From a virus, in the IMG/VR virus record IMGVR_UViG_3300025853_000070, positions 1-64,000 of that record: DNA of 64,000 nucleotides. The stretch is one strand, 5' to 3'. Positions within the stretch are counted from its first letter, which is position 1. The number at the start of each line of letters is the position of its first letter. Under the pieces are notes generated by a model, which saw only the letters and a program-made list of their open reading frames with translations, ran no database searches and had not been told where the DNA came from. The position numbers and the translations under genes were made by a program. Positions 2,393 through 21,180 of this stretch are shown here, in pieces.

Positions 2393-2560
2393 ATGAAAAT
2401 CTACACTGTGGATCACTGGCAAGAACATTGGGACGAACTGATCTCCAGAGTTGAAGGTGGAGAGCAAATAGGGATCTCAAACGGAGATAACATAGCAGTC
2501 ATGATACCAGCAGACGACGAATTATTACGAATATACACAGAACATAACGAAGGGTCTTGA
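2393..2560 (+). CDS. Phd/YefM-like antitoxin protein, apparently without a partner toxin
   Basis: A 55-residue ORF starting MKIYTVDHWQEHWDELISRV and continuing with EGGEQIGISNGDNIAVMIPADDE. This matches the compact N-terminal fold of Phd/YefM antitoxins, which bind DNA and fold as dimers: a start strand, an amphipathic helix, then a GE.I.I...... .AVMIP hairpin. The usual C-terminal toxin-binding tail is very short. No Doc/RelE-like toxin ORF lies next to it; the next elements are a tRNA promoter, tRNAs and an HNH gene. The family call rests on motif resemblance only. Confidence 0.65.
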   Translation: MKIYTVDHWQEHWDELISRVEGGEQIGISNGDNIAVMIPADDELLRIYTEHNEGS

Positions 2561-2586
2561 CAACAGCATCTCAGGTCTGCTATAAT
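2557..2586 (+). promoter_or_regulatory. Sigma70-type promoter for tRNA genes (TTGACA, 18 bp, TATAAT)
   Basis: TTGACA at 2557-2562 overlaps the end of the antitoxin-like gene, and TATAAT is at 2581-2586 with an 18-bp spacer. Transcription would begin about 2593, about ten bases before the first tRNA. Confidence 0.8.
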
Positions 2587-2603: not shown

Positions 2604-2691
2604 GGAAGTGAGACTTGGTAGTCAGAGTCGCCTTATAAGCGATTTGCGCCAGATTAGCGCCTTTGAGATGGTTCGAATCCATCCACTTCTA
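2604..2691 (+). tRNA. tRNA with long variable arm, anticodon reads UAU (Ile codon AUA)
   Basis: An 88-nt cloverleaf. The acceptor stem GGAAGTG (2604-2610) pairs with CACTTCT (2684-2690, one G-U), followed by discriminator A. The anticodon stem GTCGC/GCGAT (2627-2631, 2639-2643) closes a 7-nt loop CTTATAA with TAT at 34-36. The T arm is GATGG-TTCGAAT-CCATC. Between anticodon and T stems lies a long variable arm with a GCGC/GCGC stem, normally a class II trait (Leu, Ser, Tyr). The D arm is weak (at most about 3 bp) and position 8 is A, so identity and function are uncertain. Confidence 0.6.
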
Positions 2692-2711
2692 TTCCACTTT
2701 ATGTGGTTTTT

Positions 2712-2782
2712 GGGCGGGTACTTTAATGGTAAAAGAGGCTCCTTATAAGGGCTCAATCGGGGTTCAATTCCCCGTCCGCTTA
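2712..2782 (+). tRNA. tRNA-Ile (anticodon UAU), class I, Gly-like body
   Basis: A 71-nt cloverleaf. The acceptor GGGCGGG pairs with TCCGCTT (three G-U pairs). The D stem is CTTT/AAAG, the anticodon stem GGCTC/GGGCT closes CTTATAA with TAT at 2744-2746, and the T arm is CGGGG-TTCAATT-CCCCG, then discriminator A. The D-arm segment TTTAATGGTAAAA closely resembles bacterial tRNA-Gly, suggesting an anticodon change in a Gly-type body. It would read AUA, a codon common in this A+T-rich genome. The actual charging cannot be determined from sequence. Confidence 0.8.
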
Positions 2783-2798
2783 TTTTTAACAAAACTCA

Positions 2799-2829: not shown

Positions 2830-3459
2830 ATGAGTTGTAGAAAAGAGGGTTTGTTTGATAAGCACCATATTATACCCAAATATATGGGTGGATCAGATGA
2901 TTTTGAGAATTTAGTTACAGTATCAAGAACTTGCCATACGATGTTTCATTATTGCAATTGGCGTTTATGGAATAATAAGGAAGATTATGTTGCTTATAAG
3001 GGACTATCATCTCAAATATCAAAACAGGATATTATTAAAGTAACTGCAAGTATTGGCGGAAAAAAATGCTATAAAAATAAAACGGGATTATTTTCTTTAA
3101 CTGAAAAAGAAAAGAAACAAGCATCCTCGAAAGGTGGTAAAAAAGCAGGAAAATATATGTCCCAATCAATGTGGATTAATAATGGGATAGAAAATAAGAG
3201 AGTGTTGAAAACTAATACATTGCCAGATGGTTGGATCAAGGGAAAAGTTAAAAAGAAAAAAAGAAAAAGATATGGAAGAAGCTGGGATGAATATATCAAT
3301 ACTTTTAGTGAGGAATATGAAAAAAGAATTAAATATCTTGATAAAATTGACTTGACAAAATGGGGAATTAAAACTATAATTGCTAATGACTGGGGGGTTT
3401 CAAGAACCCAAGTAAATAGGTTTATCAAAAAACACTATTTACCTATAACCAGCACTTGA
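2830..3459 (+). CDS. HNH homing endonuclease
   Basis: A 209-residue protein with an N-terminal HNH core: HHIIP at residues 12-16, the central Asn27 in FENLV, and H36/H40 in the TCHTMFH segment. This is a His-Me finger nuclease used by freestanding homing endonucleases. The middle is lysine-rich (KKKKRKR near residue 138-145). The C-terminus WGVSRTQVNRFIKKH resembles a helix-turn-helix that would set target specificity. It sits between tRNA genes in a cluster with a second HNH gene, a typical location for tRNA-linked homing. Its stop is just ahead of the promoter of the third tRNA. Confidence 0.9.
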   Translation: MSCRKEGLFDKHHIIPKYMGGSDDFENLVTVSRTCHTMFHYCNWRLWNNKEDYVAYKGLSSQISKQDIIKVTASIGGKKCYKNKTGLFSLTEKEKKQASSKGGKKAGKYMSQSMWINNGIENKRVLKTNTLPDGWIKGKVKKKKRKRYGRSWDEYINTFSEEYEKRIKYLDKIDLTKWGIKTIIANDWGVSRTQVNRFIKKHYLPITST

Positions 3460-3484
3460 CCATTAACACTCTTTGAGTTATAAT
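3456..3484 (+). promoter_or_regulatory. Consensus sigma70-type promoter for tRNA-Leu (TTGACC, 17 bp, TATAAT)
   Basis: TTGACC at 3456-3461 and TATAAT at 3479-3484 have a 17-bp spacer. The -35 begins inside the last codons of the HNH gene. The product would contain the partial tRNA copy and then the complete tRNA. Confidence 0.8.
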
Positions 3485-3531: not shown

Positions 3532-3535
3532 CTAT

Positions 3536-3609
3536 GCCCGCATAATCCAACAGGCAGAGATAGGGAGCTTAAAACTCCTCCAGTGTCGGTTCGAATCCGA
3601 CTGCGGGTA
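3536..3609 (+). tRNA. tRNA with anticodon UAA (Leu, codon UUA) but short variable loop
   Basis: A 74-nt cloverleaf. The acceptor GCCCGCA pairs with TGCGGGT (one G-U), then A. The D stem has 3 bp (ATC/GAT). The anticodon stem GGGAG/CTCCT closes CTTAAAA with TAA at 3570-3572. The T arm is GTCGG-TTCGAAT-CCGAC. The variable loop is only about five bases, whereas bacterial tRNA-Leu normally has a long arm. UUA is frequent in this genome. Leu identity is inferred from the anticodon alone. Confidence 0.85.
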
Positions 3610-3661
3610 TTTTGTAAAACGCAACTTTTACTAAATAGTATTGCGTATACCGTTTTTAAGA

Positions 3662-4123
3662 ATGGGACAATATAGAAACTATACAGACGAAGATTTTATA
3701 GAAGCTTGGACTACTAGTGGATCTATAAGACAAGTTCTTGGAAAACTTGGATTGGTAGAAGCTGGTGGAAATTATTCTTGTGCTAAAAAAAGAGCAGATG
3801 CTTTGGGATTAACAAAAGAGCATATGCACGGAAAAGTGTGGAATAAGGGAAAGAAAGTTGGACCAAAAAGACCAGTTGAAGAATATTTGTCAAATCAAAG
3901 ATCTATTCAATCATATAAGCTCAAAAATCGCCTATTAGCAGAAGGTCTCAAACAGCACAAGTGTGAATGTTGTGGTATAACTGAATGGAATGGAAAACCA
4001 GCACCAATAGAGATTGACCATATTGACGGAAACAAGTATAATAACACCATACAAAACCTCCGCATTTTGTGTCCTAATTGTCATGCACAGACAGACACTT
4101 ATCGGGGCAAAAATAAGAAATAA
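3662..4123 (+). CDS. Zinc-finger HNH endonuclease
   Basis: A 153-residue protein using the ATG at 3662; an in-frame TTG at 3641 is less likely. The C-terminal half is a classic zinc-binding HNH: C101-x2-C104, DHIDGN at 119-124 with catalytic His120, then C137-x2-C140-H141. The first 50 residues look like a DNA-binding helix-turn-helix (DEDFIEAW..GSIRQVLGKLGL). With the HNH gene at 2830 it brackets the third tRNA, so both are candidate homing endonucleases associated with the tRNA cluster. Confidence 0.88.
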   Translation: MGQYRNYTDEDFIEAWTTSGSIRQVLGKLGLVEAGGNYSCAKKRADALGLTKEHMHGKVWNKGKKVGPKRPVEEYLSNQRSIQSYKLKNRLLAEGLKQHKCECCGITEWNGKPAPIEIDHIDGNKYNNTIQNLRILCPNCHAQTDTYRGKNKK

Positions 4124-18940: not shown

Positions 18941-21180
18941 CCAAACAAATCTATTTTTATTCTGACACCGATAGGTATGAAGACCAAATTGCCTTAGGAA
19001 AGACTCCTAAACTCAAGATTGGTGACACAGAATTAAAAGTAGTTGATGAGCGTATTAAACAGCAGGACACTACTGCATGTGCTTTACCTTTAGATAAGAA
19101 GGGTAGTTACTATACATCATTTGGTGATCGGGAGTTTCATGAATATCTTGAAATTCTGGGTTATGAAAGGAGTCGCAAAGAACGTGAATGGTTCTATATT
19201 ACCGTAGAAGATGCGGAGAAGGAACTATTTAATTACAAGAATGGAGTTGTAAAGGTCAATAAGTATTTTGATCCTCGCCCTCATCAGGCATGGGTCAATA
19301 GTGTTATTCTTAGTCGTTTTGATGGCACTCGTACTGTTACTCAACCTCTAAACCTTGCTCCACGTTTTGGCAAGACTCTTCAGGCACTTTCTTTGTTCAA
19401 AGATTCTGGTCTTGAAGTCATGATAGTTGCCGCACATTGGTTGGCAGCAAATAATTCTTTTGTATCCGCAGTTAACGAACGTTTTGATATTACTGCTGAT
19501 ATTGCAGTCATTAAACCCAAATACGAAGAATTTAAGAAAGCAATTTCTCAAGGCAAGCGTGTACTAATCGATTTATCCTTGCATACTGATGCAGAGAAGA
19601 TTGATCCTGTGCTGATTTCTGCGTTATCAGTCTATAAAAAACTCATTATCATTGATGAGGCAGACTTTGGAGCATGGACTTCATCCAGCAGAGAGACTGC
19701 ATCACAGTTTATTAACTCTGGTATCAACCTTGTTTGTGTTGCTACTGGCACCAATATTGAAAAAGCACTGATTGGATCTCATGAAGTTGAGGTGCCTATT
19801 ACAGTTTCTTATTTGGATCTATTGGAGGCAAAACGGTGTAAGGGTCCATTGTTTGAACCCGGAGGATTTTGCTGTGATGATCCTCAGAGTTGGGCATCTA
19901 AACTTGACAATCTTGTAGAGGTTGATTGTCTTACTTTGGATGCTAATCAGACTTTTATTGATTTGCATAATAACTTGAGTAAAGAAGATCGACCTAACAT
20001 GGTTAAGTTCTTTTCCAAGCGTAATGGTCATCTTCAGCGAGAGTTTATCAAGCGGGAACTCTGTGATGAAGATACAAATCAAGACGTATTTGGTTTGTAT
20101 GAATCAGAGTATGGTTCTATTGAAAAACCCGCTGTTATGCTGTTTATTCCAACAACCAAGGCAGATGTAGATAATTTTATCAACTTGGGTAAGAGTATTG
20201 CTCCGTGGTGTAACTGGGTTGCTCTACACAGTGATGAATACAGTAATCGCTCTGCAGAAGATTTGATCAAGAAGTTGATAAACAATAGTGATAAAGAACG
20301 TACAATTATTGTATCCTGCTCTATGGGTGCTCGTTCTTTCTCCATTCCAAACATCATCTCCGTCATTAACTGCTCTGATGGTGGTTCGATGTCTTCTGCC
20401 ATTCAAAAGTCATCACGCTGCTTTACTCCTGGTTGTGGAAAAAAAGTAGGTCTGATTATTAATTGGTCATTCAATACTGAACGATCTTCTAACTTTGAAA
20501 CTGATCTTATTTCTTCTAGTCTGAAGAAGCATTCTTCAGATGTTGATTATGCCATTCGTCGTGTCTTTGGATTGGTAAACTTCTATCGCAAGGATGAGTA
20601 TGGTTATCTCTCAAGGCGTTCTATTTCTGATTTCTCGGAGTATGTAATGTCTGATGAGAATCTTCAGAACATGGCAAGTTCAATTCTTGACTGGGATAAA
20701 ATGTTTGCCAATATTGATCTTGATAATCTCCTAAAAGGAGTCAAGACAGGTGGTTTCAGCGAGACTAAAAAAGAATGGGAACCAATTCTTGAGTCGGCAA
20801 AAAGTTATATTTCAACAGAATCTTCTTCCGAAAAAAGTTCTGATCCCAATGAGGCAAAAATCAAGAAATTCAAGGAAAAGATTCTTTCGATTATCAAGAC
20901 TGCCGGAAATGTTTACTATCTTGCTCCTGGTTCAAATAACTTCAAGGATGCTATGATGGTGATTTCATCTGATGCCGACAAAGTAAAAGATTATCTCAGT
21001 TTGGTTGGTATTCATCCTGAACTGATTCTTGAACATTTTTATGATTATCTTCCTGAGGTTTTTATGAATTTGATTCTAACCAAGAGTGCATCATCCGAAG
21101 GGCAATACAAATATTTTGGATTTGGTAGTTGTGATCACCCAACAGATTTATTTGATTTCAATTTGATTGATTCGATTTGA
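18937..21180 (+). CDS. GIY-YIG (T5orf172-like) nuclease fused to SF2 helicase; probable restriction subunit
   Basis: A 747-residue protein. Residues 1-90 look like a T5orf172-type GIY-YIG domain: IYFYS near 5-9, LKIGDT at 26-31, conserved Arg39 in DERIKQQ, the D64-R-E-F-H68 box and catalytic Glu84 in EREWF. Residues about 115-560 are an SF2 helicase: PRPHQAW, P-loop APRFGKT at 141-147, DEAD at 240-243 and motif VI QKSSR from 490. The last 200 residues are unassigned. It overlaps the upstream micro-gene and is followed at once by methyltransferase ORFs, so I infer the cleaving and translocating subunit of a restriction-modification-like system. The GIY-YIG call is by eye. Confidence 0.8.
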   Translation: MTKQIYFYSDTDRYEDQIALGKTPKLKIGDTELKVVDERIKQQDTTACALPLDKKGSYYTSFGDREFHEYLEILGYERSRKEREWFYITVEDAEKELFNYKNGVVKVNKYFDPRPHQAWVNSVILSRFDGTRTVTQPLNLAPRFGKTLQALSLFKDSGLEVMIVAAHWLAANNSFVSAVNERFDITADIAVIKPKYEEFKKAISQGKRVLIDLSLHTDAEKIDPVLISALSVYKKLIIIDEADFGAWTSSSRETASQFINSGINLVCVATGTNIEKALIGSHEVEVPITVSYLDLLEAKRCKGPLFEPGGFCCDDPQSWASKLDNLVEVDCLTLDANQTFIDLHNNLSKEDRPNMVKFFSKRNGHLQREFIKRELCDEDTNQDVFGLYESEYGSIEKPAVMLFIPTTKADVDNFINLGKSIAPWCNWVALHSDEYSNRSAEDLIKKLINNSDKERTIIVSCSMGARSFSIPNIISVINCSDGGSMSSAIQKSSRCFTPGCGKKVGLIINWSFNTERSSNFETDLISSSLKKHSSDVDYAIRRVFGLVNFYRKDEYGYLSRRSISDFSEYVMSDENLQNMASSILDWDKMFANIDLDNLLKGVKTGGFSETKKEWEPILESAKSYISTESSSEKSSDPNEAKIKKFKEKILSIIKTAGNVYYLAPGSNNFKDAMMVISSDADKVKDYLSLVGIHPELILEHFYDYLPEVFMNLILTKSASSEGQYKYFGFGSCDHPTDLFDFNLIDSI

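Follow-up and report, generated by a model that had tools for sequence, protein, structure and literature searches.

What does it mean when a virus carries two neighbouring tRNA genes that share the anticodon UAU on two different bodies? The textbook cargoes of class II tRNAs in bacteria are Leu, Ser, Tyr and Sec, and AUA is normally read there via a CAU tRNA modified with lysidine. An earlier note on this DNA considered it odd for an Ile anticodon to sit on a class II body, described the second body as Gly-like, and proposed anticodon switching or recoding. Here, we explored this issue in the whole stretch of DNA analysed (the window), which covers 64 kb of a 65.8-kb viral record and contains T4-like cyanophage genes (baseplate, neck, tail; Synechococcus phage-related). 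ARAGORN reported three tRNA genes in the window, called tRNA 1, tRNA 2 and tRNA 3 below. The features of the cluster are as follows.

2557..2586, plus strand: promoter-like site TTGACA-18-TATAAT with TG ahead of the -10, matching 12/12 consensus positions and ending 17 bases before tRNA 1
2604-2691, plus strand: tRNA 1, class II, anticodon UAU at 2634-2636 (ARAGORN tRNA(tat), Rfam, covariation, family model)
2612..2623, plus strand: compact D arm of tRNA 1, GACU-UGGU-AGUC, a 4-bp stem with a 4-base loop
2632..2638, plus strand: anticodon loop of tRNA 1, CUUAUAA (U33, UAU, A37, A38)
2646..2660, plus strand: variable arm of tRNA 1, GCGC-CAGAUUA-GCGC, in which the stem covaries and the loop is nearly invariant
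about 2711-2783, plus strand: tRNA 2, class I tRNA-Ile, anticodon UAU, A73 (ARAGORN tRNA(tat); RF00005)
2830..3459, plus strand: HNH endonuclease gene between tRNA 2 and tRNA 3 (PF01844, E = 2.5e-8; PHROG homing endonuclease)
about 3535-3610, plus strand: tRNA 3, Leu anticodon UAA, short (class I) variable region (RF00005, 50.1 bits)

ARAGORN and Rfam agreed with the earlier note that two UAU tRNAs lie side by side, both with the loop CUUAUAA and the first with a long variable arm. With the general tRNA model of Rfam (RF00005, cut-off 29 bits), the scores were 54.1 bits for tRNA 2 and 32.5 bits for tRNA 1; the latter was missed under the default speed filter and passed the cut-off once the filters were relaxed. 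The earlier note had left it to a covariance model whether the first gene is a tRNA at all, and it lies above the threshold. The cloverleaf described here gave −29.2 kcal/mol on the 88-nt strand of tRNA 1 (z = −3.2), better than 200 of 200 shuffles. Regarding tRNA 3, the same Leu(UAA) tRNA with a short variable region occurs near the tRNA 1-type genes of S-SKS1 and S-SRM01, and phage Leu tRNAs in the fetched loci fall into two length classes, short and long. UUA codons of the window, which the UAA anticodon reads, still mean Leu in alignments of homologues.

We found that cyanobacterial viruses and related aquatic phages share a large, overlooked family of UAU tRNAs with a long variable arm and a shrunken D arm. 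A BLAST search with tRNA 1 matched S-SRM01 and S-SKS1 at about 83% identity. A scan for the D-arm pattern with the anticodon left free matched at least 120 viral contigs, and about 100 of the matches listed were the same tRNA; a scan for the variable-arm pattern that put no constraint on the D arm added, among the matches listed, most of a second subfamily. The joint pattern was matched by 196 of the 264 fetched loci, a count in which L001-L003 and L238 repeat records already included. Loci were chosen by pattern match and contig counts are lower bounds; read in this way, the family is present in at least nearly 190 viral contigs, plus the Synechococcus phages S-SKS1, S-SRM01 and S-CBWM1 and two Nostoc genomes. 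The tRNA is without annotation in the records of all three of these phages. The family covariance model (R1) gave tRNA 1, which was itself in the training set, 103.3 bits, and it found the family tRNA of S-CBWM1, which was outside the training set, at 20931-21017 with 76.4 bits. S-CRM01 has a divergent form (48.5 bits) plus a 3' remnant of a second copy: in this locus (L126), the divergent class II UAU tRNA occupies 2091-2180, and what is left of the broken copy, its variable and T arms, comes next at about 2196-2233.

Beyond viruses, the family tRNA was found in the two Nostoc genomes only. The search of 385 other cyanobacterial genomes gave zero matches, and none was found in plasmids. Excisionase-like and phage-type hydrolase genes flank one of the Nostoc copies. 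The family falls into two subfamilies. Subfamily A belongs to cyanophages, several with psbA. Subfamily B belongs to T4-like phages, with psbA absent from the records checked, and encodes the CCA end. Baseplate and reductase proteins of subfamily B phages resemble those of Pelagibacter, Methylophilales and Alcaligenes phages, and it is solely this protein likeness that points to their putative hosts. A single family copy lies within each subfamily B array of 20-38 tRNAs; arrays of up to 38 tRNAs were seen in uncultured T4-like phages (loci L141, L152 and L194) and other subfamily B members. No close carrier of the subfamily B tRNA was present among INPHARED phage records. A few unusual copies were also seen. 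At L057 4419 (plus strand) and L075 11688 (reverse strand), the family tRNA ends after the anticodon arm and a partial CAU-type tRNA follows directly. At L017 5092, there is a short tRNA-like sequence with anticodon CAU and the same D arm sequence, GACTTGGTAGTC.

The fold was then examined in 39 diverse sequences. Unaided, RNAalifold returned a 7-bp acceptor stem joined by a single linker base to a D stem of 4 bp with a 4-base loop; after one more base came a 7-bp anticodon stem, then a variable arm of 4 bp closing a 7-base loop, and last a T stem of 5 bp. Across the family the variable arm has 4-5 bp and the T arm is normal. For the pair count, we extended this fold by one pair in the variable arm and by two tertiary pairs, 19-56 and 54-58. 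In total, 99.7% of cells were paired, both sides changed in 21 of 30 pairs, and the covariation score was 0.545 compared with 0.156 in shuffles, far above both the shuffles and slid controls. Each helix, including the 7-bp acceptor and the 5-bp T stem, was 98.9-100% paired, and the invariant pairs (the last ones of the acceptor, D, variable-arm and T stems) are uninformative on pairing. The D arm reads GUGU-UGGU-ACAC in relatives and GAAC-UGGU-GUUC in S-CBWM1. The earlier note had allowed for a different loop register in the first gene; covariation in the 39 relatives fixes the register as it was read. We also considered the 8/4 fold of allo-tRNAs and rejected it: the eighth acceptor pair is missing in 37 of 39 sequences, and the first T-stem pair covaries as in a 5-bp T stem.

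The tertiary contacts are kept as well. All three unique sequences with A19 in the D loop have U56 in the T loop, the other 85 of the 88 having G19 and C56, and U54-A58 is reversed to A54-U58 in three of the 88; the covariation at 19-56 and 54-58 comes from few independent changes. Since both contacts are kept, the D and T loops may well dock as in a real tRNA. In the family tRNAs of L032, L072, L105 and L110, where 54 and 58 are swapped, the T loop is AUCGUAA instead of UUCGAAU.

The low score under the general Rfam model, the relatives that are just under its cut-off or missed, and the two truncated copies (L057 and L075) are what would be seen if tRNA 1 were a decayed pseudogene or resembled a tRNA by chance alone. 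However, compensatory change is strong and the anticodon loop is invariant across phages of different genera, and both the score of tRNA 1 with the family model, even with tRNA 1 in its training set, and the recovery of S-CBWM1 from outside that set argue against this explanation. We consider it the least probable of all, and we take the gene and its fold, with the tertiary contacts, as established.

The anticodon was UAU in 181 of 181 parsed copies, and all 181 had the loop YUUAUAA. Three complete scans of viral contigs for any non-UAU anticodon in the family frame gave four chance matches, all in non-tRNA sequence. Anticodon switching within the family, one of the proposals of the earlier note, is therefore unsupported; an ancient switch at the origin of the family is possible. 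The discriminator base was A73 in 88 of 88 unique sequences, and U72 stood opposite a purine in 96 of 97. G1-U72 was examined as a special mark and discarded, as it is frequent in other tRNAs of the same phages.

The variable region, 23-24 bases long, was strongly conserved. We found 16 distinct variable regions among 97 unique family tRNAs, compared with 54 among 58 tRNA-Ser(gct) from the same contigs. Its loop is nearly invariant, C(A/C)GAU(U/C)A, and this conservation is not a search artefact because the first scan made no selection on that loop.

We compared this body plan with known systems. The tRNA-Ile(UAU) of Mycoplasma mobile and Lactobacillus plantarum, which works without lysidine, shares with the family the use of UAU for AUA, A73, and A37 beside U36 as t6A needs. 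These two tRNAs are class I with a normal D arm, a form that tRNA 2, unlike tRNA 1, matches. The family thus has the UAU, A37, A38 and A73 of a tRNA-Ile(UAU) and lacks the short variable loop of class I. A very short D loop, a single linker base and a lengthened anticodon stem are shared with tRNA-Pyl, but the very small variable loop and CUA anticodon of tRNA-Pyl are both absent from the family. The variable loop of tRNA-Pyl is tiny, and the anticodons of tRNA-Sec and tRNA-Pyl read stop codons. tRNA-Sec also combines a very short D loop with a long variable arm; however, its acceptor branch is 13 bp long and its discriminator is G73 (PMC7609411), whereas the family has 12 bp, as 7/5, and A73. 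A long variable arm joined to a non-class-II anticodon also occurs in the allo-tRNA(UAU) found in soil bacteria (Mukai et al. 2017, via PMC7609411), and UAU is one of the most frequent anticodons there. Allo-tRNAs have 8/4 or 9/3 acceptor/T stems and 35 different anticodons (PMC7609411), whereas the family is 7/5 and always UAU. The serine identity of allo-tRNAs goes with G73, in contrast to A73 throughout the family. Among cyanophage tRNA sets, a TAT tRNA is present in S-CREM1 (PMC9964418), and S-PM2 has a class I TAT (UAU) tRNA and is without a close family member. The literature searched, mostly outside subscription journals, contained no description of a class II UAU body plan. The best reading is that the body plan is that of a phage tRNA-Ile for AUA, with no matching description found.

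The second gene of the pair is simpler. The earlier note saw a Gly-like body in tRNA 2. However, tRNA 2 has A73, whereas phage tRNA-Gly has U73 (45 of 46 Gly-tcc in related arrays). It has a class I body with G1-U72, and outside its own species the closest sequence is the class I tRNA-Ile(UAU) of L048. Judged by its sequence, tRNA 2 is an ordinary class I tRNA-Ile(UAU); the window thus pairs two AUA-reading tRNAs that are unrelated to each other, and neither is a Gly tRNA that changed its anticodon. The fetched loci, themselves selected for the class II gene, gave 11 cases of class I UAU tRNAs versus 183 of class II. Both classes occur together in a handful of loci (e.g., L048, L067 and L083).

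Class II bodies usually carry Leu, Ser or Tyr, and A73 suits Leu or Tyr; tRNA 1 might thus carry one of these three and alter the meaning of AUA in the phage. We examined the homologue residues at codon sites of the window proteins. AUA sites aligned with Ile at 50%, Val at 24%, Leu at 11% and Ser at 2% (n = 315), and AUU sites with Ile at 57%, Val at 17%, Leu at 10% and Ser at 2% (n = 641). UUA sites, unlike AUA sites, aligned with Leu at 65%. The same test gave 50% Ile in a subfamily B phage (G006, n = 44), and 27% (n = 49) and 54% (n = 24) in the small sample of G001. Of the 1233 Ile codons in the main window genes, 327 are AUA, about one in four, and two AUA readers with different cargo would conflict in the genome of the window. 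Because AUA aligns with Ile in homologues much as AUU does, the recoding suggested by the earlier note is unsupported and, in our view, highly improbable; AUA can be taken to mean Ile. The oddity raised by the earlier note, an Ile anticodon on a class II body, is nevertheless real and conserved, while neither recoding nor switching within the family is supported.

Our main reading, to which we give a probability of roughly three in four, is that tRNA 1 does real work in translation, inserting Ile at AUA codons of the phage; it would be transcribed, folded, charged by a host synthetase and used in decoding. In part of the family, transcription would start from a strong promoter of its own just upstream. 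A sigma-70 promoter with 11-12 of 12 consensus positions was found in 15 of 67 subfamily A upstream regions versus 16 of 456 random stretches, and in all 15 the -10 ends 12-17 bases before the tRNA. This near-perfect promoter at a fixed distance suggests that the RNA is made directly, and the transcript of tRNA 1 probably comes from its own promoter. Further near-perfect sigma-70 promoter-like sites were seen round the tRNA cluster at 3352-3380 (12/12), 3456-3484 (11/12) and 4014-4042 (11/12). The RNA would fold into an L-shape in which the D arm is shortened and the variable arm long, host IleRS would charge it with isoleucine, and the charged tRNA would decode phage AUA codons on the ribosome; these later steps we infer.

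Charging deserves attention. U12-A23 is an Ile element of E. coli tRNA, and the D stem of tRNA 1, as read from the sequence, is without it. A UAU tRNA is reportedly charged poorly by the IleRS of a lysidine-using host (E. coli). E. coli IleRS needs lysidine at C34 to charge the CAU tRNA-Ile2 (PMC11938285), and t6A37 is a strong determinant for charging by IleRS (PMC9976931). These points make the charging of tRNA 1 the central question. No synthetase of the Ile/Leu/Val/Met class was found in 17 phage records with the family, and no TilS was encoded in the phages checked, so host enzymes must charge tRNA 1. The Synechococcus host of S-CREM1 has no TAT tRNA, the sole S-CREM1 tRNA type that this host is without (PMC9964418). 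We can offer a guess: if one part of the tRNA serves as a charging element, the conserved variable arm is the first to consider; its near-invariant loop would probably be recognised by IleRS, or by an enzyme that processes or modifies the tRNA, and would offset the lost core contacts. More specifically, and tentatively, the arm may be an identity element through which a host synthetase attaches Ile to a UAU tRNA that has no lysidine, and the class II tRNA-Ile body would then have evolved in phages as a way round the normal route of AUA decoding; or the arm may give the tRNA a second, non-translational role in infection.

A class I UAU tRNA is already present in the window, so tRNA 1 would be redundant here, which counts against the main reading. 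It may instead act outside translation altogether, as a tRNA-shaped decoy or regulator, for example as bait for a host anticodon nuclease or as a protein partner via the variable-arm loop. Conservation of that loop goes far beyond what ordinary class II tRNAs show, and tRNAs encoded by phages are known to protect against defences that cleave tRNAs (PMC10264068). In soil bacteria, allo-tRNAs with UAU have been linked to mobile elements or toxin-antitoxin systems, and they did not function when tried in E. coli translation (PMC7609411). However, the acceptor stem, A73, U33, the 19-56 and 54-58 contacts and the encoded CCA of one subfamily are kept, as they should be if the tRNA is charged and used on the ribosome, and the family gene is the UAU member inside full tRNA arrays. 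We regard a purely non-translational role as unlikely.

Reading AUA as Ile by tRNA 1 is thus the explanation we prefer. Because the anticodon is always UAU, the family most likely helps the virus read AUA, a codon that is rarely used by the hosts. A widespread class II body with an invariant UAU breaks both the rule on class II cargo and the rule that AUA is read by a CAU tRNA with lysidine, in a family that standard annotation has missed. The family therefore offers a direct test of what IleRS really requires and of how phages decode a codon that their hosts avoid.
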